This document shows positions 3,049-46,948 of a stretch of DNA of 48,324 nt, piece after piece. A program made the translations under genes and the position numbers. The DNA comes from Patescibacteria group bacterium (lineage in GTDB: Bacteria; Patescibacteriota; Microgenomatia; UBA12405): the NCBI GenBank assembly GCA_013387215.1, contig WARW01000010.1, positions 1 to 48,324 of the forward strand. Direction: 5' to 3'. Under the pieces are notes generated by a model, which saw only the letters and a program-made list of their open reading frames with translations, was not told the DNA's origin and ran no database searches. Position 1 is the stretch's first letter, and each line of letters begins with the position of its first letter.

Positions 3049-3942
3049 ATGCTTAACGTATACGAACAAGTAGCACGAAATAAACTCAGATCAACCGTAA
3101 TTATCGGCCTATTTGTGGTTTTTATTGTTGCAGTTGCTTATATTATTTCTCAAGCTTTCGGACTAGGTGATTCATTTTTAATCTTTGCATTCATAATTTC
3201 ACTTTTCATGTCTGGTATCAGTTATTTTTATGGTGACCAAATTGTTTTAGGTCTTAATCATGCCAGATCAGCCGACCGCAAAGAATTTTTTGACTTTTAT
3301 ACTGTGACTGAAAATTTAGCCATGGCCGACCAGCTTCCCATGCCTAAAATTTATGTGATTGATAGCGCCGCTCCCAATGCTTTTGCCACTGGCCGCGATC
3401 CGCAACACGCCATCGTCTGTGCCACCACCGGACTTCTCGCCAAACTTAATCGCACTGAACTTGAAGCAGTGATTGCTCATGAACTTTCCCATGTCAAAAA
3501 TTATGATATCCGTTTGATGATGATTGTCAGTATTTTGATTGGCACCTTATCTATATTAATTAATATTGCTTCAAGAAGTTTTTTCTTTGGCGGGGGACGA
3601 CGGGATAATGACCGCAACAATGAAGGTGGCGCAATTCTCGCTATTATTGGCATCATTTTAATAATATTTGCTCCGCTTATTGCTCAATTAATTCAGTTGG
3701 CCATTTCTCGCCGACGTGAATATTTAGCCGATGCTTCGGGGGTAAAACTAACCAGACAACCACAAGGCTTAATTGATGCCTTAATCAAAATTTCTGATGA
3801 TCCTAGCAAATTAGAAACTGCCTCAACTGCCACGGCTTCGCTTTATATTGAAAACCCTTTCAAGGGCCAGAAGCTTGCCAGCCTTTTTTCCACCCATCCT
3901 CCAATTGAGGATAGAATCAAGGCTCTTCAACAAATGCTCTAA
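3049..3942 (+). CDS. htpX: HtpX-like M48 membrane metalloprotease
   Basis: HELSHVKNYD zinc motif, NAFATGRDPQHAIVCATTGLL, RRREYLADASG. Confidence 0.95.
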   Translation: MLNVYEQVARNKLRSTVIIGLFVVFIVAVAYIISQAFGLGDSFLIFAFIISLFMSGISYFYGDQIVLGLNHARSADRKEFFDFYTVTENLAMADQLPMPKIYVIDSAAPNAFATGRDPQHAIVCATTGLLAKLNRTELEAVIAHELSHVKNYDIRLMMIVSILIGTLSILINIASRSFFFGGGRRDNDRNNEGGAILAIIGIILIIFAPLIAQLIQLAISRRREYLADASGVKLTRQPQGLIDALIKISDDPSKLETASTATASLYIENPFKGQKLASLFSTHPPIEDRIKALQQML

Positions 3943-3996
3943 TAAGCGATAGTACGTTATCTTGGTTTTTTAAAATAGTCGTTTAAAATAAGTCAT

Positions 3997-6900
3997 ATGC
4001 CGCAATTTGTTCATTTGCATGTCCACACTGAGTATTCACTCTTGGATGGACTGCAAAAGATAAAAAAATTAGTTCCAGCCGTCAAAGAAATGGGCATGAA
4101 TGCTGTTGCCATTACTGATCATGGCAACATGTATGGCGCGATTGAATTCTACAAAGCTTGCAAGAAAAACGAAATAAAACCTATTATTGGATGCGAAGTC
4201 TATATTGCTGGAAATGGTCGATTTGATAAATCTCCCAATAATAGGCGAAACCAGCATTTAATTTTATTAGCCAAAAATTACACTGGATATCAAAATTTAA
4301 TGAAGCTGGTCAGTATTGGCCATATTGAAGGTTATTACTACAAACCAAGAATCGACTGGGAAATCTTGCAAAAATATCATGAAGGTTTAATCTGTACCAG
4401 TGCTTGTGTTGAAGGTGAAATCTCTCAATATATTCTCGACAATAAATATGAAAAAGCTGTTGAACGGGCCAAAGAATTCCAAAAACTTTTTGGTGAAGAT
4501 TATTATTTGGAAATTCAACGCCACCCAGGATTAAAAGATCAAGATATTGCCAACGAAGGTATTATAAAAATTAGCCGTGAACTAGGCATTCCTTTAATTG
4601 CTGCCAACGATGCTCATTATCTTAAAAAAGAAGATGCTTTTGCTCAAGATGTTTTGATCATGATCAATACTCAAACAAACGTTAACGACACTAAACGTAT
4701 GAGTATGATGCAATGGCCAGACTTCTACATGAAATCTCCTGAAGAAATGGCCGAACAATTTGCTGATTTGCCAGATGCTTTGGAAAATACTCAGAAAATT
4801 GCAGATAAATGTAATGTTGAAATTGATTTAGGCAAATGGGATTTTCCACAATTTCCACTAGAGCCAGGCAAAACTGCTGAAACAACTTTGCGTGAACTTG
4901 TTTATGGCTGTGCTAAAGACCATTACGGTGAACTCAATCAGGATATTATTGATCGTCTCGAATATGAATTAGACGTTATCTGCACCAAAGGTTACGCACC
5001 CTACTTCTTAATCATGCGTGATTTTATTCAATGGGCTGAACAAAACGACACTCCAACCAACACTAGAGGTTCTGCCGGCGGCTGTTTTGTGGCATTCGTA
5101 CTTGGAATTACTTCAGTAGATCCATTAATTTATCAACTTCCATTCGAAAGATTTTTAAACAAAGACCGTCCATCACCTCCAGATATCGACTTAGATATTT
5201 CCGATACTAAACGACAAGGGATGCTTTATCATATTATCGATCAATACGGTAAAGACATGGTCGCTCAAATCTGCACTTTTGGTAGAATGATGGCCAAAGG
5301 TGCTGTCCGCGACACGGCTCGTGCCCTCGGTTACGAATATGCCATTGGTGATCGAATTAGTAAATTGATTCCCATGGGTTCACAAGGCTTTCCTATGTCA
5401 ATCGACAAAGCCTTGCAAACTACTCCCGATCTTAAGGCAATTTACGATTCTGAACCAGATGCTAAAAAAATAATTGACATGGCTAAACAGATTGAAGGCT
5501 GCGCCCGCCACATCAGTGTTCACGCCTGTGCTATCGTTATTTCTCCAAAAGATATTAATGCCTATACTCCAACTCAGTTGGAAACTGGTGGCGACAAAAC
5601 CATTACTCAATATGAAATGCATGCTGCCGAAGAAGTGGGTTTAATCAAATTCGATATTCTTGGAATCCGCAATTTATCATTTTTGGGAGAAGCTGTTGTT
5701 AATGTCAGAAAAACCCGTGGTGTTGAAGTTAATTTAAGAAAATTGCCGCTTGATGATAAAAAAACTTTTGACATGTTATCCCGTGGCGACACTATGGGCG
5801 TTTTCCAACTTTCCGGCGAAGGCATGACCAAATGGCTTAAAGAGCTAAAACCAAACCGGGTTGAAGATTTAATGGCAATGGTAGCATTATATCGTCCAGG
5901 TCCAATGGCTATCATCCCAGAATATATTGCCCGCAAAAACGATCCGTCAAAAATTGAATATTTTGACCCAAAAATGGAGAAATATTTAAAAGCATCTTAT
6001 GGACTTTTGGTTTACCAGGATGACTGTTTATACACCGCTATTGAACTTGCTGGTTACAATTGGACTGAAGTTGATAAGTTTAGAAAAGCTATCGGTAAAA
6101 AAATTCCGGAAGAAATGGCTATCCAAAAGGAAAAGTTTTTTCAAGGTTGTATTAATAATGGTTACACAGAAGAAAAAGCCAAAGAAATCTTCTCTTTTAT
6201 CGAACCATTCACTTCTTACGGTTTCAACAAGGCTCACGCTGCCTCTTACGGCATGTTGTCCTATCGTACTGCCTACATGAAGGCCAACTATCCGGTGGAA
6301 TACATGTGTGCTCTTTTAACTGCTGAATCTGGTGACACTGAAAAAATCACCGACGGGGTTGAAGAATGCCGCAAGATGAAAATAGTTGTCGGCCCACCAG
6401 ACATAAATAAATCAAAAAGTGGTTTTGAGATGGAAGAAAATAAAGAATCATTTGGTGGCATGGCAATTCGTTTTGGTTTCAGCGCTATTAAAAATGTCGG
6501 TGATGCCGCTATCGAAAATATTATTAAAGAACGCGAAGCCAATGGTCCATTTATAAGTTTTACTGATTTTTGTTTAAGAGTTGATGGTCAAAAAGTAAAC
6601 AAAAGAGTTTTGGAAAGTTTAATTAAAGTCGGCGCCATGGATCAATTCGGATCTAGAAATGCAATTCTGGCCTCTATTGATCTTATCCGCCAAAACTGCG
6701 AAAAAATAAACGGCAAAAGAAATAATAATCAATTCGGTTTATTTGATGATCCAAAAGAAGACCGCAGCAAGCCAGTTGCTCCCCCTGATAATTTCCCTCA
6801 AGTTGAAGAAATGACTGAACGGGAAAAACTATCTTTGGAAAAAGAACTCTTGGGAATTTTTGTTACCGAAAACCCAATTGCTAAAATTTTAGATGCTTTT

Positions 6901-13842: not shown

Positions 13843-16227
13843 TTAGCTAGTTATTTTAAAAAATCTGCTAATAAATTTTATAAATTTCATTATTGAAAAC
13901 CTTGTTGTTTTCACCTGATTTTCCATATCTTTTAAAGGGGTATATTCGCAAGCTCCTATATCTGGCTGTTCCGTAATTGAATTACCAACAAAGTCAGTTT
14001 TTAAACCGACATTACTTCCATTATTAACAGCAGGGGATAATTCTTTAATTCTCAAATCTGAATTACTCACATCTTCAAACAAAGGGTCTAAATAAATTGA
14101 ATTTTTATCTTGATTTGTCACCAGTTTCCAATTATCAAAATTATATTCAACTCCTTTCCAAATAAAACTAGGATTCAAAAATTTATTTATTACCAAAGCT
14201 GAAGGTCTTTCTTTTCCATTTGCATCATATATTCCATAAGCATCGCCTTCTTTAAGCGTGTATACGCAAGCGACACTCACATAATCAGAATATAAATCTC
14301 TTAAAATTTCAAAAGCATTTTTAATATATGACGCCTGATTTTTCAAACTTACCATATCAAGACCCCAGCCAAATTCAGTAATCCATATTTTTTTATCTGA
14401 TTGACCATTATCAACCATAATTTTTCTGATGGCGGCAATACTGCCAAAACTATTATTATCCTTAAGATTAGGAGGATTTGCAATGTCGTCGGTATAAACG
14501 TGATATGAGACTGCATCAGGATAAATGTTGTTTTCATAAAATTTTTGCAAAAATTCTCCTCCATGAGCGTCACTGCTCGATCTTTTCCAAGCACCTATTT
14601 GAACAGCCACTTCAGCCGATGGATCAATCGCGTGAATTGCTTCCGAAACCGCTGAATAAAGTTCCATGTATTGATAAATATTGGGCATTGGTTTCCAAAA
14701 ATAAGTCAAACTGGCTTCATTCCATACTTCATATTTATGCATTTTTCCTTTATATCTTTTTGCCGCCTCTCTGGCAAAATCAACAAAACCAGATTTCCAT
14801 GCTTGAAATGTCGGACCCGTCATCTCATAAGCATGAATATCGTCAATATAAAGATAATTTCCAAGAGAAAGAGGTCCATAAAAAGAAACTTCTACTTGAG
14901 TGCAGCCCTCAGGCGCCTTAAACAATATTTCTTTTTGAACATAAGTATCACCCCAATTATCGCCATTTCTTTTACTGATTATTTCCGAATTATGGGAGAT
15001 ATCTTTAACTTCATATGTCTCCGCATCATGTCTAGTCCAAAACTGAACTGAATAACTCATACCAGGCTTTACGTTAATAGTTTGTTTTATAGAACTATTA
15101 TTGGTAATCTTCACTGCCTTAAAACCGCCATGAACTAATTTCGTTTCACTCTCCACATTCCCATCTGTTTTCCAATCTGATGAAAGCTTATCAATTTCAA
15201 AATCTCCCGACTTTAATAAATCCGTTATTTCATATGGAACATGATGGATATCCGAATTTTTATTGGCCCATGCTGGCGAATTATCTAAAACGGCCAAAGG
15301 CTCAATATTATTTTCAACTAATTTATTAATAAAATAGTCGGTATGACTCCAATCCCGAGAACCTTTATTTGTCTCTATTCTTGACCAATCAAAATCGTCC
15401 CGCGAAACAGTAACTCCAAGCTGTTTCATTCTGGCCACATATTTATCAACATCATTATTGCCAATACTTGCCAAAGAACTATTAATTCCATATTGAATGT
15501 TTTTGGTTGTTCCATAGTAAAGGTTATTGTTAACTTCTGGTCCTTTCGACACTTTTGGGTCAACATTTATAAAAACATTTGCGCTCGCATAATTGCTATA
15601 CACAATATTATTTTTCGCCACATTATCATTTCCCAAAATAGAAATCGGTGTATAAGAATTATTTATTAATGTATTGTTGTATAAAGCATTCGATGACCCG
15701 GTAACAGTAATAGTATTTCCTAAAGAATAATTAGAAACTATATAATCAATTTGATTGTTATTTCCATTTAACTTAATTGGTCCGTTTACATGAAGTTGGG
15801 TTAGTCTAATATAGTTTTTAAAATTGAAATCCACACCTGAATTCTCGTCTCCCAAAATCATTGGCTGATCTCCATTACTTCCGTAAGATCCATAAGTAAT
15901 TAAGTTTCCTTCAACTCCCGAAGATGAGATGGTAAGTTTTTCCAAAAACCTTTGTCCTTTTTTCAGAAAAATATTATCACCGCCAACGTATCCATTTGGT
16001 TTTTCTTGCATTTTAGCAATCGAATTAAATGGTCCAGCTTTTCCAGAATCAGAAGCACAAACACAGGAAGGGGAAGTGCCATTACAAGTTCCATCACCGC
16101 TATTTAAGCAACTACTATCAATATAATAAGAACTGGCGTATGTTTTGATAGGAAAAACAACCAGAAATACGGTTAAAACTACAACCGATTGGCTTAATTT
16201 CAAAAAATATCCCCACTTTTTCATCAA
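13843..16227 (-). CDS. Secreted beta-helix protein with inserted TIM-barrel glycoside hydrolase and CBM-like module
   Basis: Signal peptide; beta-helix N-term; VSRDDFDWSRIE, VWNEAS, WITEFGW barrel motifs; C-term DPLFEDVSNSDLRIKELSPAVNNGSNVG...PDIGACEYTP beta-helix ending. Confidence 0.85.
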   Translation of the reverse strand: MMKKWGYFLKLSQSVVVLTVFLVVFPIKTYASSYYIDSSCLNSGDGTCNGTSPSCVCASDSGKAGPFNSIAKMQEKPNGYVGGDNIFLKKGQRFLEKLTISSSGVEGNLITYGSYGSNGDQPMILGDENSGVDFNFKNYIRLTQLHVNGPIKLNGNNNQIDYIVSNYSLGNTITVTGSSNALYNNTLINNSYTPISILGNDNVAKNNIVYSNYASANVFINVDPKVSKGPEVNNNLYYGTTKNIQYGINSSLASIGNNDVDKYVARMKQLGVTVSRDDFDWSRIETNKGSRDWSHTDYFINKLVENNIEPLAVLDNSPAWANKNSDIHHVPYEITDLLKSGDFEIDKLSSDWKTDGNVESETKLVHGGFKAVKITNNSSIKQTINVKPGMSYSVQFWTRHDAETYEVKDISHNSEIISKRNGDNWGDTYVQKEILFKAPEGCTQVEVSFYGPLSLGNYLYIDDIHAYEMTGPTFQAWKSGFVDFAREAAKRYKGKMHKYEVWNEASLTYFWKPMPNIYQYMELYSAVSEAIHAIDPSAEVAVQIGAWKRSSSDAHGGEFLQKFYENNIYPDAVSYHVYTDDIANPPNLKDNNSFGSIAAIRKIMVDNGQSDKKIWITEFGWGLDMVSLKNQASYIKNAFEILRDLYSDYVSVACVYTLKEGDAYGIYDANGKERPSALVINKFLNPSFIWKGVEYNFDNWKLVTNQDKNSIYLDPLFEDVSNSDLRIKELSPAVNNGSNVGLKTDFVGNSITEQPDIGACEYTPLKDMENQVKTTRFSIMKFIKFISRFFKITS

Positions 16228-42181: not shown

Positions 42182-42688
42182 ATGATTTTAACTCAAAAGA
42201 TCATAAAAGCTTTACATATTGCCGCAAAACAACACGAAGGTCAAAAAAGAAAAGATAATATTACTCCTTTCATCGTTCACCCAATTGAAGTGGCATGGTT
42301 AGTTAGCGAGTACTCAAACAATGAAGATATTATTTCAGCTGCTTTACTACATGATGTGGTTGAAGATACTCTCGGTTATTCCTTCAAACAAATGACTTCC
42401 GATTTTGGTGATATGGTAACAACAATTGTCTCTACTATTACTGATCCACCTCATAATAATATGACCTGGAATGAATTGCATAAAAAATGTCTTGAAAAAC
42501 TTAAATCAGGAAATAATGAGTCAGTGTTAATTTTTCTAGCTGACAAATATACCAGTATCAATACTAAGCCAATAGATTTAGATAGAGTTTGGTATTACAA
42601 AGAAATAATTGAAATTGCCAAAAACAGGGAATTTACAAAAAATACGAAATTACTAAAAGAGTTTGAAAAATTAATTCAAAATTATTAG
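42182..42688 (+). CDS. RelA/SpoT-like HD domain protein (hydrolase domain only)
   Basis: HEGQKRKDNITPFIVHPIEVAWLV...AALLHDVVEDT. Confidence 0.88.
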   Translation: MILTQKIIKALHIAAKQHEGQKRKDNITPFIVHPIEVAWLVSEYSNNEDIISAALLHDVVEDTLGYSFKQMTSDFGDMVTTIVSTITDPPHNNMTWNELHKKCLEKLKSGNNESVLIFLADKYTSINTKPIDLDRVWYYKEIIEIAKNREFTKNTKLLKEFEKLIQNY

Positions 42689-42759
42689 TTGCCCCGCATG
42701 GATTCGAACCACAGTATACAGCTCCAAAGGCTGTTGTCCTACCATTAGACGACGGGGCA
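42689..42759 (-). tRNA. tRNA-Gln (TTG)
   Basis: TGCCCCG...ACAGC-CTTTGGA-GCTGT...CGGGGCAA. Confidence 0.94.
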
Positions 42760-42791
42760 ATGTGCCGTTTCTTGCTCCTAGTCCCTTTAGG

Positions 42792-42803
42792 GACGACGGG
42801 GCA
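42792..42803 (-). repeat. Duplicate of the tRNA-Gln 5' end
   Basis: TGCCCCGTCGTC, identical to the first 12 nt of tRNA-Gln (42748-42759); adjoins hairpin GTCCCTTTAGGGAC 42781-42794. Confidence 0.7.
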
Positions 42804-42818
42804 GTAACGTGTAATATT

Positions 42819-43187
42819 TTATCCTACAATTTCGCCTTCTTCAACATGCTCTTTAATATCCGATTTCTCCATATGTTCTTTAATAATTTTCCAATTCATT
42901 TGATTAGATCTAAAGAAAACATCTCCAGTTACACCAGCAATAGGCACTAGTCCAATTGCAAAATCCAAAACAAGATTTAAAAGCATTTTATTTACCTTAG
43001 GTTTGGGTAAATTTAATATTTTGGCCACGTAAATTAAATAAAAACCAACCGCTGAACCGATAATATCACCAAATCCGGGAATTAAACTTAAAATAGGATC
43101 TAATCCAAATCTGATTCCAAAAATCTTGAATCTATTGTCTAATAAATCGGCTAAATTCTTTGCTAACCGATAATGAATATCTTTCAT
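42819..43187 (-). CDS. DUF4112 family protein
   Basis: LADLLDNRFKIFGIRFGLDPILSLIPGFGDIIG...VLDFAIGLVPIAGVTGDVFF. Confidence 0.9.
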   Translation of the reverse strand: MKDIHYRLAKNLADLLDNRFKIFGIRFGLDPILSLIPGFGDIIGSAVGFYLIYVAKILNLPKPKVNKMLLNLVLDFAIGLVPIAGVTGDVFFRSNQMNWKIIKEHMEKSDIKEHVEEGEIVG

Positions 43188-43198
43188 TTATTAATAAG

Positions 43199-43280
43199 TG
43201 CCGAAGGAGGGACTTGAACCCCCACGCCTCGCGGCATACGCACCTCAAGCGTACGTGTATACCAATTTCACCACTTCGGC
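43199..43280 (-). tRNA. tRNA-Leu (GAG)
   Basis: GCCGAAG...TACGC-TTGAGGT-GCGTA...CTTCGGCA with long variable arm. Confidence 0.94.
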
Positions 43281-43293
43281 TTATTTTTTAATG

Positions 43294-43366
43294 TGGTCAC
43301 TGAGGGACTCGGACCCCCGACATCTTCGATGTAAACGAAGCGCTCTACCAACTGAGCTAAGTGACC
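43294..43366 (-). tRNA. tRNA-Val (TAC)
   Basis: GGTCACT...CTTCG-TTTACAT-CGAAG...AGTGACCA. Confidence 0.95.
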
Positions 43367-43385
43367 GAGTACCTTAATTTTAATG

Positions 43386-43458
43386 AGCGGGAAACGGGAT
43401 TCGAACCCGCGGCCTTCTCCTTGGCAAGGAGACGCTCCACCAATTGAGCTATTCCCGC
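43386..43458 (-). tRNA. tRNA-Gly (GCC)
   Basis: GCGGGAA...TCTCC-TTGCCAA-GGAGA...TTCCCGCT. Confidence 0.95.
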
Positions 43459-43492
43459 AATACGGTTTATTGTACCAAATAAATTGTTAATG

Positions 43493-43565
43493 TGCCGAAG
43501 GTTGGAGTCGAACCAACATCCCAGGTTTTTCAGACCAGTGCCGTGACCACCTTGGCTACTTCGGC
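43493..43565 (-). tRNA. tRNA-Phe (GAA)
   Basis: GCCGAAG...CTGGT-CTGAAAA-ACCTG...CTTCGGCA; one U-U mismatch in anticodon stem. Confidence 0.85.
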
Positions 43566-43622
43566 TTACAAGTGTGTTTATTATACCAACTTTCTTGAAA
43601 ATGTTACTTTTTAATTTTAAAA

Positions 43623-43656
43623 GAAAAAAGCGGTTTTGCAATGATGCAGGTACCGC
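43623..43656 (-). terminator. Intrinsic terminator of the PurM-like gene
   Basis: Minus strand GCGGTACCTGCATCATTGCAAAACCGCTTTTTT. Confidence 0.7.
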
Positions 43657-43708
43657 CTGGACCCAAACTGATTTTTTCTCAATTCATCCAAATAATATAG
43701 AGTTTTTT

Positions 43709-44830
43709 CTACCTAACTTTTAAGGATGATCCTTTGTATATTAGATTCATTGGATTAATTACGACTCTCTTTTGTTTTGTTTTAGCCATATCAACATAGC
43801 CAGCATTAATCGCTTCTAATCCGCATTTGTTTGCAATATCAATTACTGAAGCAATGTCTAGTTCATTAACATAAATTGCAAACCCGGCACCCATATTAAA
43901 ATTGCCATACATTTCTTTTGTTTTTACAGGTCCATTTTTCTGAATGAATTTAAACACTTCATGAGGTTCAAAAATTTTGTTGATTACATAATCGTACGTT
44001 TCCCCAGCTCTCATTAATTTTCTCCACCCATGACCCGTAATGTTTACAGCATAATTAATTTTTATGCCTTCATCCACACACTCGTCAATAAAAGGTACAT
44101 AAATTGTTGTTGGATCTAAAAGTGCTTCTCCAAACATTCTTCCGTCATTCATTTCTGTCATAAATCCATTAGGCAATTTTCCTGCAATTTCTCTAGCCAT
44201 AGTCAAACCATTAGCATGAATGCCGGAACTTCTGATTAGTATGATTGCATCACCAACTTTGATATTTTCTGAATTAATTATCCTATTTTTAGGACTAATT
44301 ATTCCAGTTGCTGAACCTGCCAAAACTACTGTATGAGGATTAACGATTCCTTTTAGTGTGGGTGTTTCGCCGCCTCCCCAAGTGCATCTCGACATTTCAC
44401 AAGCTTTTTTCCATCCAGATATTAATTCTTGATACCGATATTTGTCTTTAAACCAATCTGAGCTGCCGGCAGCCAAATGCATTGCAACTGATAAAGGCAT
44501 TGCACCCAAAGTAATCAAGTCATTCACAATCATTGCCACAGTGTCTTGAGCAACCTGATCATAATAACTTTTTCCGGTTATTCGATACATTTCATCAGCC
44601 ACTAAGTTCTTTGTTCCCAATCCTTCTTCCACATGAGCCAAATAAAAGTACCGCTGTTCCATTAAAAAAGCGCTTTCCCCGCGGCTTTTTTCAACCACTT
44701 TAAACCCATATTTCGGATTTATTGTGGTTTTTAATGCTGCTTTTTGAGCTTCTTTTTTAAATTTATCCATTGTGCCATAAACCACACCGGTTCCTTCATA
44801 AGTCATTCCTTTTACAGTCATCAGAATCAC
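43709..44830 (-). CDS. AIR synthase (PurM)-like protein
   Basis: DTVAMIVNDLITLGAMPL, CTWGGGETPTLKGI, LIRSSGIHANGLTMAREI; SD AGAAGGAGTGATT. Confidence 0.88.
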   Translation of the reverse strand: MILMTVKGMTYEGTGVVYGTMDKFKKEAQKAALKTTINPKYGFKVVEKSRGESAFLMEQRYFYLAHVEEGLGTKNLVADEMYRITGKSYYDQVAQDTVAMIVNDLITLGAMPLSVAMHLAAGSSDWFKDKYRYQELISGWKKACEMSRCTWGGGETPTLKGIVNPHTVVLAGSATGIISPKNRIINSENIKVGDAIILIRSSGIHANGLTMAREIAGKLPNGFMTEMNDGRMFGEALLDPTTIYVPFIDECVDEGIKINYAVNITGHGWRKLMRAGETYDYVINKIFEPHEVFKFIQKNGPVKTKEMYGNFNMGAGFAIYVNELDIASVIDIANKCGLEAINAGYVDMAKTKQKRVVINPMNLIYKGSSLKVR

Positions 44831-44932
44831 TCCTTCTATATTATTGTGTTAAAGTTCAGATCGCTTCGATCTTTATTTACAAGCGTATTTTAGCACCATT
44901 TCTCAATATTTAGGTCTTATTTATTTTATATG

Positions 44933-45016
44933 TGCCACGGGTGGGACTTGAACCCACACGCCCTTGCGGGCACGCCGTTCTGAGCGACGCCTGTATACCA
45001 ATTTCAGCACCATGGC
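44933..45016 (-). tRNA. tRNA-Leu (CAG)
   Basis: GCCATGG...CGTCG-CTCAGAA-CGGCG...CCGTGGCA with long variable arm. Confidence 0.94.
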
Positions 45017-45044
45017 AAAAACCTAATCTTATGTATTTTAACCT

Positions 45045-45536
45045 ATGTTAGACTATCTCATGGTTTCTAATCCAAATGATAGGCCAAAAGTTGTTTTAGT
45101 CAATCGCTCTGTCATTATCAATTCCAAAGGCAAAATCCTTCTGATACAGAGAGCAAAAAATGATCGGAATAATGCCAACCTTTGGGAATTACCTGGAGGC
45201 AAGCTTGATGAAGGCCAAGATATTTCTCATGCTCTCGAAAGAGAAGTTCTTGAAGAAACCGGGCTATTAATAAATCCTGTTTCCCGTTCCGCCTATTTTG
45301 AAAGTCTAGTCATCTCCAGTGGACCATATATTGGTCTTCCTTATATTGTCATTATTGGCATCAGTCTTCTGGAAGAAGGTAAAGTCAAATTATCCGAAGA
45401 ACACCAAGATTTTGTATGGGTAGAACTAAAAAACGCCAATAAATACGAGCTAACTTCAGAAACAGAAAAAGCTCTTTTAGTTTTAAAAAAACCAATAACT
45501 AAAATCATTAAAAAATATGAAACTGTCCGAATATAA
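45045..45536 (+). CDS. Nudix hydrolase
   Basis: Nudix box GGKLDEGQDISHALEREVLEETGL. Confidence 0.94.
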   Translation: MLDYLMVSNPNDRPKVVLVNRSVIINSKGKILLIQRAKNDRNNANLWELPGGKLDEGQDISHALEREVLEETGLLINPVSRSAYFESLVISSGPYIGLPYIVIIGISLLEEGKVKLSEEHQDFVWVELKNANKYELTSETEKALLVLKKPITKIIKKYETVRI

Positions 45537-46017
45537 AAAACTAAATAATTTTCGGTTTAAGGAAACAACGATTTCTTTTTTAGTCAAAAATAATCAAGTT
45601 TTATTGGCCATGAAAAAACGAGGTTTTGGTGTTGGTAAATGGAATGGAGTTGGTGGCAAAAAAATGCCCAATGAAAGTATTTTGCAGACTGCAACAAGAG
45701 AAGCCAAAGAAGAAATCATGGTTGAACCAATTACCATTCGTCATTGTGCCACAATTTATTTTTATTTACCTCACGATCCAGAACATAATCAAAAAACTTC
45801 TATTTTTATTGTTAATAAATGGAAAGGCAAACCCACTGAAACTGAAGAAATGAGTCCTCGCTGGTTTAATAAATTTCAAATTCCCTACGAATCAATGTGG
45901 TCTGACGATTCAATTTGGCTGCCAAAACTTCTAAACAACGAAAATTTTACCGCCGAGTTCTTGTTTGATAAAGACAACAAAGTTGCCGACTACCTCATCA
46001 CCGATAACGTTAAATAA
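45517..46017 (+). CDS. MTH1-like Nudix hydrolase
   Basis: MKKRGFGVGKWNGVGGKKMPNESILQTATREAKEEIMV, SPRWFNKFQIPYESMWSDDSIWLPKLL. Confidence 0.92.
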   Translation: MKLSEYKKLNNFRFKETTISFLVKNNQVLLAMKKRGFGVGKWNGVGGKKMPNESILQTATREAKEEIMVEPITIRHCATIYFYLPHDPEHNQKTSIFIVNKWKGKPTETEEMSPRWFNKFQIPYESMWSDDSIWLPKLLNNENFTAEFLFDKDNKVADYLITDNVK

Positions 46018-46055
46018 AAAACCGGCAGACGCACAAATTGTGTCGACCCACCGGT
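46015..46055 (-). terminator. Intrinsic terminator of the 46079-46483 gene
   Basis: Minus strand ACCGGTGGGTCGACACAATTTGTGCGTCTGCCGGTTTTTT. Confidence 0.65.
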
Positions 46056-46078
46056 AAAACAAAAAAGAAAGGGGGTGA

Positions 46079-46483
46079 TCAATAAACGTACTCACATATT
46101 TTAAATAAAGATTTTCTATAGCCCAAATCGAGTTTAGTTGAATCTAGTTTCCGACTCATATCTTGTATTCTTTGCCACGGCAAATTTTCCACCAATTTAT
46201 AGAAATTCCAAAATTCATCAAAGTTTCTTAACCTAATTGAGTTAATTCGTGAAAGCATTTGATTGCAAATTTGAATGTAATAATTTTCAAAATGAAAAAC
46301 CATATCTTTTCTTTCCAGAATTCGATTTTTTTCTTTAGTTAAATTATTAAGACGATAAATTAAAATGTTTTTAGTTAAAAACAAAGCGGCTTTTTCACCA
46401 CCTTCTTTGTTTCTAAAGAGAACATCAATGGCATGAATACCATCCCTCAACATAATGATGTCAAAATTTAATTCGTCCATCAT
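46079..46483 (-). CDS. Hypothetical helical protein with strong SD
   Basis: 134 aa; leader AAGAAAGGGAGGTTTTTTTATG. Confidence 0.65.
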   Translation of the reverse strand: MMDELNFDIIMLRDGIHAIDVLFRNKEGGEKAALFLTKNILIYRLNNLTKEKNRILERKDMVFHFENYYIQICNQMLSRINSIRLRNFDEFWNFYKLVENLPWQRIQDMSRKLDSTKLDLGYRKSLFKICEYVY

Positions 46484-46620
46484 AAAAAAACCTCCCTTTC
46501 TTGATTTTAAAAGTACTAAAGCGTTTACGACTCATGCAGTTTGCGTCAAAACACCCAAAGTACTGGAAGTATACTACTAAAAATTTTTATTGGAGAATCA
46601 AATTATTACAAAAACGTTGG

Positions 46621-46691
46621 AGCGGGTAGGGGGAATCGGACCCCCGCCAAAAGATTGGAAATCTTTTGTTCTACCACTAAACTATACCCGC
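46621..46691 (-). tRNA. tRNA-Gly (TCC)
   Basis: GCGGGTA...AAAGA-TTTCCAA-TCTTT...TACCCGCT. Confidence 0.94.
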
Positions 46692-46782
46692 AAATCTTTA
46701 AAATTTTACAAGCAGAGTCGGGTTGAGAATCGAAATTTCCATTCGATTCGAAATCCAGCGAAGTTTTGCTTGCAAAACTGAG

Positions 46783-46856
46783 TCGGGGATATAGGATTCG
46801 AACCTACAGCCTCACGGTCCCAAACCGTGCGCGCTAGCCAATTGCGCCAATCCCCG
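46783..46856 (-). tRNA. tRNA-Pro (TGG)
   Basis: CGGGGAT...CACGG-TTTGGGA-CCGTG...ATCCCCGA. Confidence 0.95.
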
Positions 46857-46861
46857 TATTG

Positions 46862-46948
46862 TGTGCCGCTGGCGGGGGTCGAACCCACACGCTTTTTGAG
46901 AGCACAAGATTTTAAGTCTTGCGTGTATACCAATTTCACCACAGCGGC
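46862..46948 (-). tRNA. tRNA-Leu (TAA)
   Basis: GCCGCTG...CAAGA-CTTAAAA-TCTTG...CAGCGGCA with long variable arm. Confidence 0.94.

Follow-up and report, generated by a model that had tools for sequence, protein, structure and literature searches.

The gene described here lies on the minus strand between positions 13843 and 16227 of the window, by which we mean the whole stretch of 48,324 nucleotides analysed, from a Patescibacteria group bacterium with a genome of 1.3 Mb. The open reading frame is unbroken over this whole range, as the original prediction had stated, and codes for a protein of 793 aa from the ATG at 16224. The limits given earlier for the inserted domains were also close, within a few bases of our refined values (nt 15498-14173 for the outer insert and 15222-14815 for the carbohydrate-binding module, CBM). 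The genes beside it code for a uracil-DNA glycosylase, a GNAT acetyltransferase and an acetate-kinase family protein (Pfam) and give no hint to its function. Elsewhere in the window (42688-46948, minus strand) nine tRNA genes are clustered. The parts of this protein, referred to below as the nested protein, are the following:

13846..16224, minus strand: complete CDS of the nested protein, 793 aa (open frame; a TTG stands one codon 5' of the ATG)
16135..16224, minus strand: predicted Sec-type signal peptide, aa 1-30, MKKWGYF...VVVLTVFLVVFPIKTYASS (by eye from the sequence)
15499..16134, minus strand: right-handed beta-helix, N-cap and rungs, aa 31-242 (N-cap match to beta-helix ORFs of relatives; AlphaFold strands)
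14173..15498, minus strand: outer insert, aa 243-684, GH39 barrel with its CBM (splice scan and GH alignment)
15223..15498, minus strand: GH39 barrel part 1 (beta1-beta3), aa 243-334 (alignment A1; GH profile match at aa 241-326; pLDDT)
14815..15222, minus strand: CBM_4_9 jelly-roll in the beta3-alpha3 loop, aa 335-470 (Pfam; modelled beta-strands)
14173..14814, minus strand: GH39 barrel part 2, aa 471-684 (Pfam Glyco_hydro_39; phmmer and Foldseek matches to PslG)
14716..14718, minus strand: predicted acid/base E503, in WNEAS (aligned with PslG E165; invariant in A1)
14374..14376, minus strand: predicted nucleophile E617, in WITEFGW (aligned with PslG E276; invariant in A1)
13930..14172, minus strand: beta-helix closing segment of choice-of-anchor Q type, aa 685-765 (NF041518 match at aa 725-761; own closing profile)
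13846..13929, minus strand: basic amphipathic C-terminal tail, aa 766-793 (modelled helix 768-788; hydrophobic moment up to 0.55)

Inspection of the signal peptide (aa 1-30) revealed no lipobox. The last 28 residues form the basic amphipathic helix at a place where relatives have a dockerin or a linker.

The beta-helix and its closing segment

According to the original prediction, the protein starts as a beta-helix and finishes with the closing segment of the same family, two pieces that would be contiguous in ordinary members. In the unsplit beta-helix proteins of related genomes an NNLYY or NNLWY motif is indeed followed within ~10-40 residues by W..F..W, DPxF and SPAI(D/N)xG...DIGAxEY, whereas in the nested protein 443 residues intervene between the NNLYY-type motif and the closing motifs. 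When the insert was spliced out, the query matched L141 (genome G008, same taxonomic family, the closest unsplit relative) through the junction with phmmer (7.9e-08). When the splice points were varied over a 50 x 41 grid against this unsplit relative, the optimum fell exactly at 242/686, and a sliding deletion of 443 aa gave a single peak at residue 242, with a score of 150 (median 98 over 280 positions). Both the grid optimum and the lone deletion peak argue that the outer nesting signal is not due to chance. Splicing added at least 16 score units for 15 of the 22 unsplit beta-helix ORFs. The closing segment matched NCBIfam NF041518 (choice-of-anchor Q) at aa 725-761, scoring 23.5 bits when the protein was scanned, just under the cut-off of 25, and 27.3 bits when the genome was, and also matched our own closing-segment profile, in which the query sequence was included, at aa 681-764 in the numbering of the stop-to-stop ORF (1.7e-35). 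This sequence evidence supports the prediction that the two outer pieces, contiguous in ordinary relatives, have been split in the nested protein. It likewise supports an insertion site that is not mid-helix but in the loop leading from the final beta-helix rung to the closing segment.

An AlphaFold model had been suggested together with the prediction as a check, and its answer was divided: the barrel was strongly supported and the join of the beta-helix pieces had low confidence. The full nested protein was modelled from a 35-sequence alignment (A4), the best of several compositions tried; in a mixed fragment alignment the beta-helix fragments were misplaced by MAFFT. The barrel had pLDDT values mostly >85, with many blocks at 90-98 and >90 for most of aa 260-320, and the CBM was modelled as beta-strands with medium confidence. 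Strands of the N-terminal beta-helix appeared at aa 60-150 (pLDDT ~75-90), confidence was low past residue 165, and pLDDT fell to <50 at aa 176-253 and over most of aa 686-765. Because the flanks of the insert are of such low confidence, the model neither confirms nor refutes the join, and it is from the homologs that we infer the physical continuity of the beta-helix. The unsplit relative L141 was modelled as one complete beta-helix (mean pLDDT 84, pTM 0.89), with the parallel beta-helix lyase Pel9A as its best PDB match. The equivalent of the junction in this model, placed from the phmmer alignment of the spliced query with L141, is T367/G368 of the folded stretch, within a low-confidence loop (364-388) straight after the last rung strands.

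The same protein could be read as a tandem of a short beta-helix, a GH39 barrel with its CBM and a small independent choice-of-anchor Q module, with no outer nesting at all. Choice-of-anchor Q is a separate domain in NCBIfam, the closing segment is unplaced in the full-length model and a tandem beta-helix-GH39 fusion is present in genome G082 (L004/L011). Furthermore, locus L151 carries the closing motif after repeats that are not of beta-helix type, so that the motif might be an independent small domain, and this keeps the tandem arrangement alive. We nevertheless regard it as unlikely, since splicing restores the similarity to L141 across the junction, rung residues 177-242 included, with its optimum at exactly 242/686, and since the closing motif stands directly behind the rungs in nearly all other loci that have it.

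The GH39 barrel and the module inside it

Pfam PF01229 (Glyco_hydro_39) matched the whole nested protein with 37.3 bits (cut-off 26). PslG came top in a phmmer search of PDB sequences (1e-07) and was also the best Foldseek match of the full-protein model (7.6e-09), the first four ranks being shared by PslG entries and a GH39 protein from Bacteroides. The barrel belongs to GH39 as a PslG-like member, so the "clan-A-like hydrolase" of the original prediction was right as to the hydrolase barrel and can be narrowed to this family by Pfam and Foldseek. Membership of GH10 was considered and rejected, given that the GH10 profile of Pfam reached 15.9 bits, below its cut-off of 22.1 and only once the CBM had been removed, and that GH39 scores best. 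The barrel is likened to the split-barrel enzymes of the GH10/CBM4 and GH148 types in its putative working mode and, on the GH10 score, not as a member.

PslG of Pseudomonas aeruginosa is a retaining endo-beta-glucosidase with E165 as acid/base and E276 as nucleophile (PMC11912335). E503 and E617 of the nested protein align with this pair, in agreement with the earlier choice of VWNEAS and WITEFGW as candidate acid/base and nucleophile motifs, and both N502-E503 and T616-E617 are invariant in alignment A1 (11 relatives). Going by these conserved catalytic residues, E503 and E617 would carry out a retaining endo-hydrolysis of a beta-linked polysaccharide. A different view would make the barrel a non-catalytic glycan-binding relative that serves adhesion only, as beta-helix and CBM domains often just bind and the beta-helix of ChiW (CBM-54) is non-catalytic, binding cell-wall polysaccharides without cutting them (PMC5132251). 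We find this quite improbable, because both catalytic glutamates are conserved together with their motifs and are aligned with the experimentally assigned pair of PslG.

The barrel was also predicted to be split by a jelly-roll or CBM-like module, and the sequence evidence supports this. Pfam CBM_4_9 matched with 27.6 bits within the protein and 33.4 bits when the module was taken alone (cut-off 25.9). In alignment A1 the barrel is unbroken in 11 of 11 GH39 relatives and split in the nested protein, after the beta3 motif SPAWAN. With aa 335-470 cut out, the GH39 score went up from 37.3 to 46.9 bits and a single Pfam match spanned the junction. Homologs lacking each of the two inserts have thus been found, L141 for the outer one and the 11 GH39 relatives for the CBM. 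A barrel profile, scored on ORFs from 127 loci, aligned one half of the nested protein to profile positions 3-89 and the other to 97-311, with ~148 residues in between, and no other of the roughly 130 barrel ORFs had a large insert at the same point. The nesting of a CBM in a barrel has known precedents: in the GH10 enzyme Pm25 a CBM4 is looped out between beta3 and alpha3 (PMC7848910), in the GH148 enzyme EngU a CBM4 is inserted in the barrel (PMC5725463) and in the GH5 enzyme MtGlu5 the barrel is split by a CBM29-like module (PMC9063844). The inserted CBMs of the GH10 and GH5 enzymes add to substrate binding (PMC7848910, PMC9063844).

Other barrels of this family showed features of their own. 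Three PslG/GH39-like barrels from gut Kiritimatiellae and Thermoguttaceae (L102:3908-5833, L080:1517-3583 and L127:3911-5869) have ~225-245 extra residues soon past the nucleophile motif, another insertion site in the family. A disaggregatase-related protein on plasmid pMETHO01 of Methanomethylovorans hollandica (L044:4617-7169) contains PKD and disaggregatase repeats beside a GH39-like barrel, which connects this type of barrel with archaeal sheath proteins.

Distribution and origin of the layout

None of 34 further genomes of the family had the same layout, nor did any in the samples of 374 genomes from the class and 380 from the phylum, and it was not found among the best 80 GH39-like loci from named genomes. 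A search with this one protein gave no relative in genome or viral contigs, and no Phrogs profile matched it. None of 30 further choice-of-anchor Q loci of the phylum contained an inserted enzyme. In a Deltaproteobacteria genome (L119:573-3341 and 3356-4969) a beta-helix gene is immediately followed by a GH39-like one, the two coding for separate proteins. Dockerin-like repeats were seen at the end of several GH39-like or beta-helix proteins of these small genomes (L016, L017, L140, L141, L144 and L146; those of L016 and L140 matched Pfam Dockerin_1), which may be a sign of surface complexes.

A beta-helix protein of the same class (L138:3556-5598, G148:C22) has an insert of ~340 aa between DPKF and a SPAIN-type closing motif. 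Searches of this insert gave no Pfam match and no useful PDB match, and its assignment as a polysaccharide deacetylase, which came from visual resemblance alone, was dropped. L138 may be a further, independent example of such an insertion, with the site lying close by in the closing segment.

Third-position G+C was uniform over all modules of the nested protein (0.19-0.27; 0.21-0.31 in the other window genes sampled), and a signature of recent transfer was sought in it and not found. Direct repeats that could be a trace of insertion were also looked for, and none above background length was placed exactly at the module junctions. One reading frame together with a uniform third-position G+C speaks against the modules having been joined recently or as a chimera. 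An assembly or gene-model artefact fusing parts of different genes is extremely improbable: the layout has been seen once, in one draft genome with no relative alike, but the frame is intact across four junctions, each of them at a domain boundary, third-position G+C matches in all modules and no repeat above background length sits exactly at the junctions.

Proposed function and likeness to known systems

Taken together, we consider it very probable that the gene codes for a secreted PslG-like GH39 polysaccharide hydrolase carried inside a right-handed beta-helix, with a CBM_4_9 inside the barrel. The architecture is well supported; function and substrate are predictions. The signal peptide would export the protein, the barrel would protrude as a loop from the flexible stretch that connects the last rung to the closing segment, so that both of its ends would be tied to one beta-helix, and the CBM_4_9 would in turn be looped out of the beta3-alpha3 loop of the barrel, beside the active-site end. 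The beta-helix would anchor the protein on a glycan matrix or on the cell surface, perhaps helped by the basic amphipathic tail; the CBM, judging by the inserted modules of the GH10 and GH5 enzymes, would catch a glycan chain next to the cleft, where E503 and E617 would cut it. The nested protein is probably an endo-beta-glycanase, secreted and held at the surface, on a beta-helix platform. By analogy with ChiW the host beta-helix could be a binding platform, and the tail may help to hold the protein at the surface.

The individual parts of the nested protein are ordinary. Beta-helix proteins usually gain catalytic domains in tandem. Here a host domain has apparently taken up a whole barrel that contains a binding module in its turn, giving two levels of nesting in one secreted glycanase. 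The novelty is in the outer level, since no described case of a barrel inside a beta-helix was found in a partial coverage of the literature; the earlier statement that no described enzyme has this layout stands for the outer nesting and fails for the inner one, already known from the GH10, GH148 and GH5 enzymes cited above. Should the inferred fold prove correct, the closing loop would be an insertion site usable for the rigid mounting of enzymes, and the nested protein would test the folding order of nested domains. It also points to polysaccharide processing in a reduced-genome bacterium, probably of a candidate phylum, to judge by the 1.3 Mb of its genome and by relatives such as L060 and L069. 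A more far-reaching idea is that the closing loop serves these bacteria repeatedly as a place where whole enzyme domains dock, with the barrel held at both ends in a rigid, double-nested surface enzyme; L138 is a second protein with an insert, a different and unassigned one, at a neighbouring point of the closing segment. We put this idea forward tentatively, as conceivable and rather doubtful.

Among known systems, PslG has the closest solved structure to the barrel by sequence and fold, with acid/base E165 and nucleophile E276 aligned, but it has neither a beta-helix host nor a CBM in its barrel, and with an identity of at most ~30% its substrate cannot be transferred. The GH10/CBM4 xylanases (Pm25, Xyn10C type) share a CBM4 in the beta3-alpha3 loop of a clan-A barrel, the position being equal by alignment (PMC7848910). 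They differ in belonging to GH10 and in having no outer host domain, and Pm25 has two tandem CBMs. EngU (GH148) and MtGlu5 (GH5) likewise have a clan-A or GH5 barrel interrupted by a CBM (PMC5725463, PMC9063844), although the insert of EngU comes after beta4, that of MtGlu5 is CBM29-like and neither enzyme lies inside another domain. ChiW, a cell-surface chitinase of Paenibacillus, likewise joins beta/alpha barrels to a right-handed beta-helix (CBM-54) (PMC5132251), but its domains are in tandem, its barrels are GH18 and its anchoring is by SLH. Finally, the choice-of-anchor Q beta-helix proteins such as L141 have the same order of N-cap, rungs, NNLYY/NNLWY, W..F..W, DPxF, SPAI(D/N)xG and DIGAxEY as the nested protein, but in them it is contiguous, with no inserted enzyme, and L141, L140 and L144 end in dockerin-like repeats.
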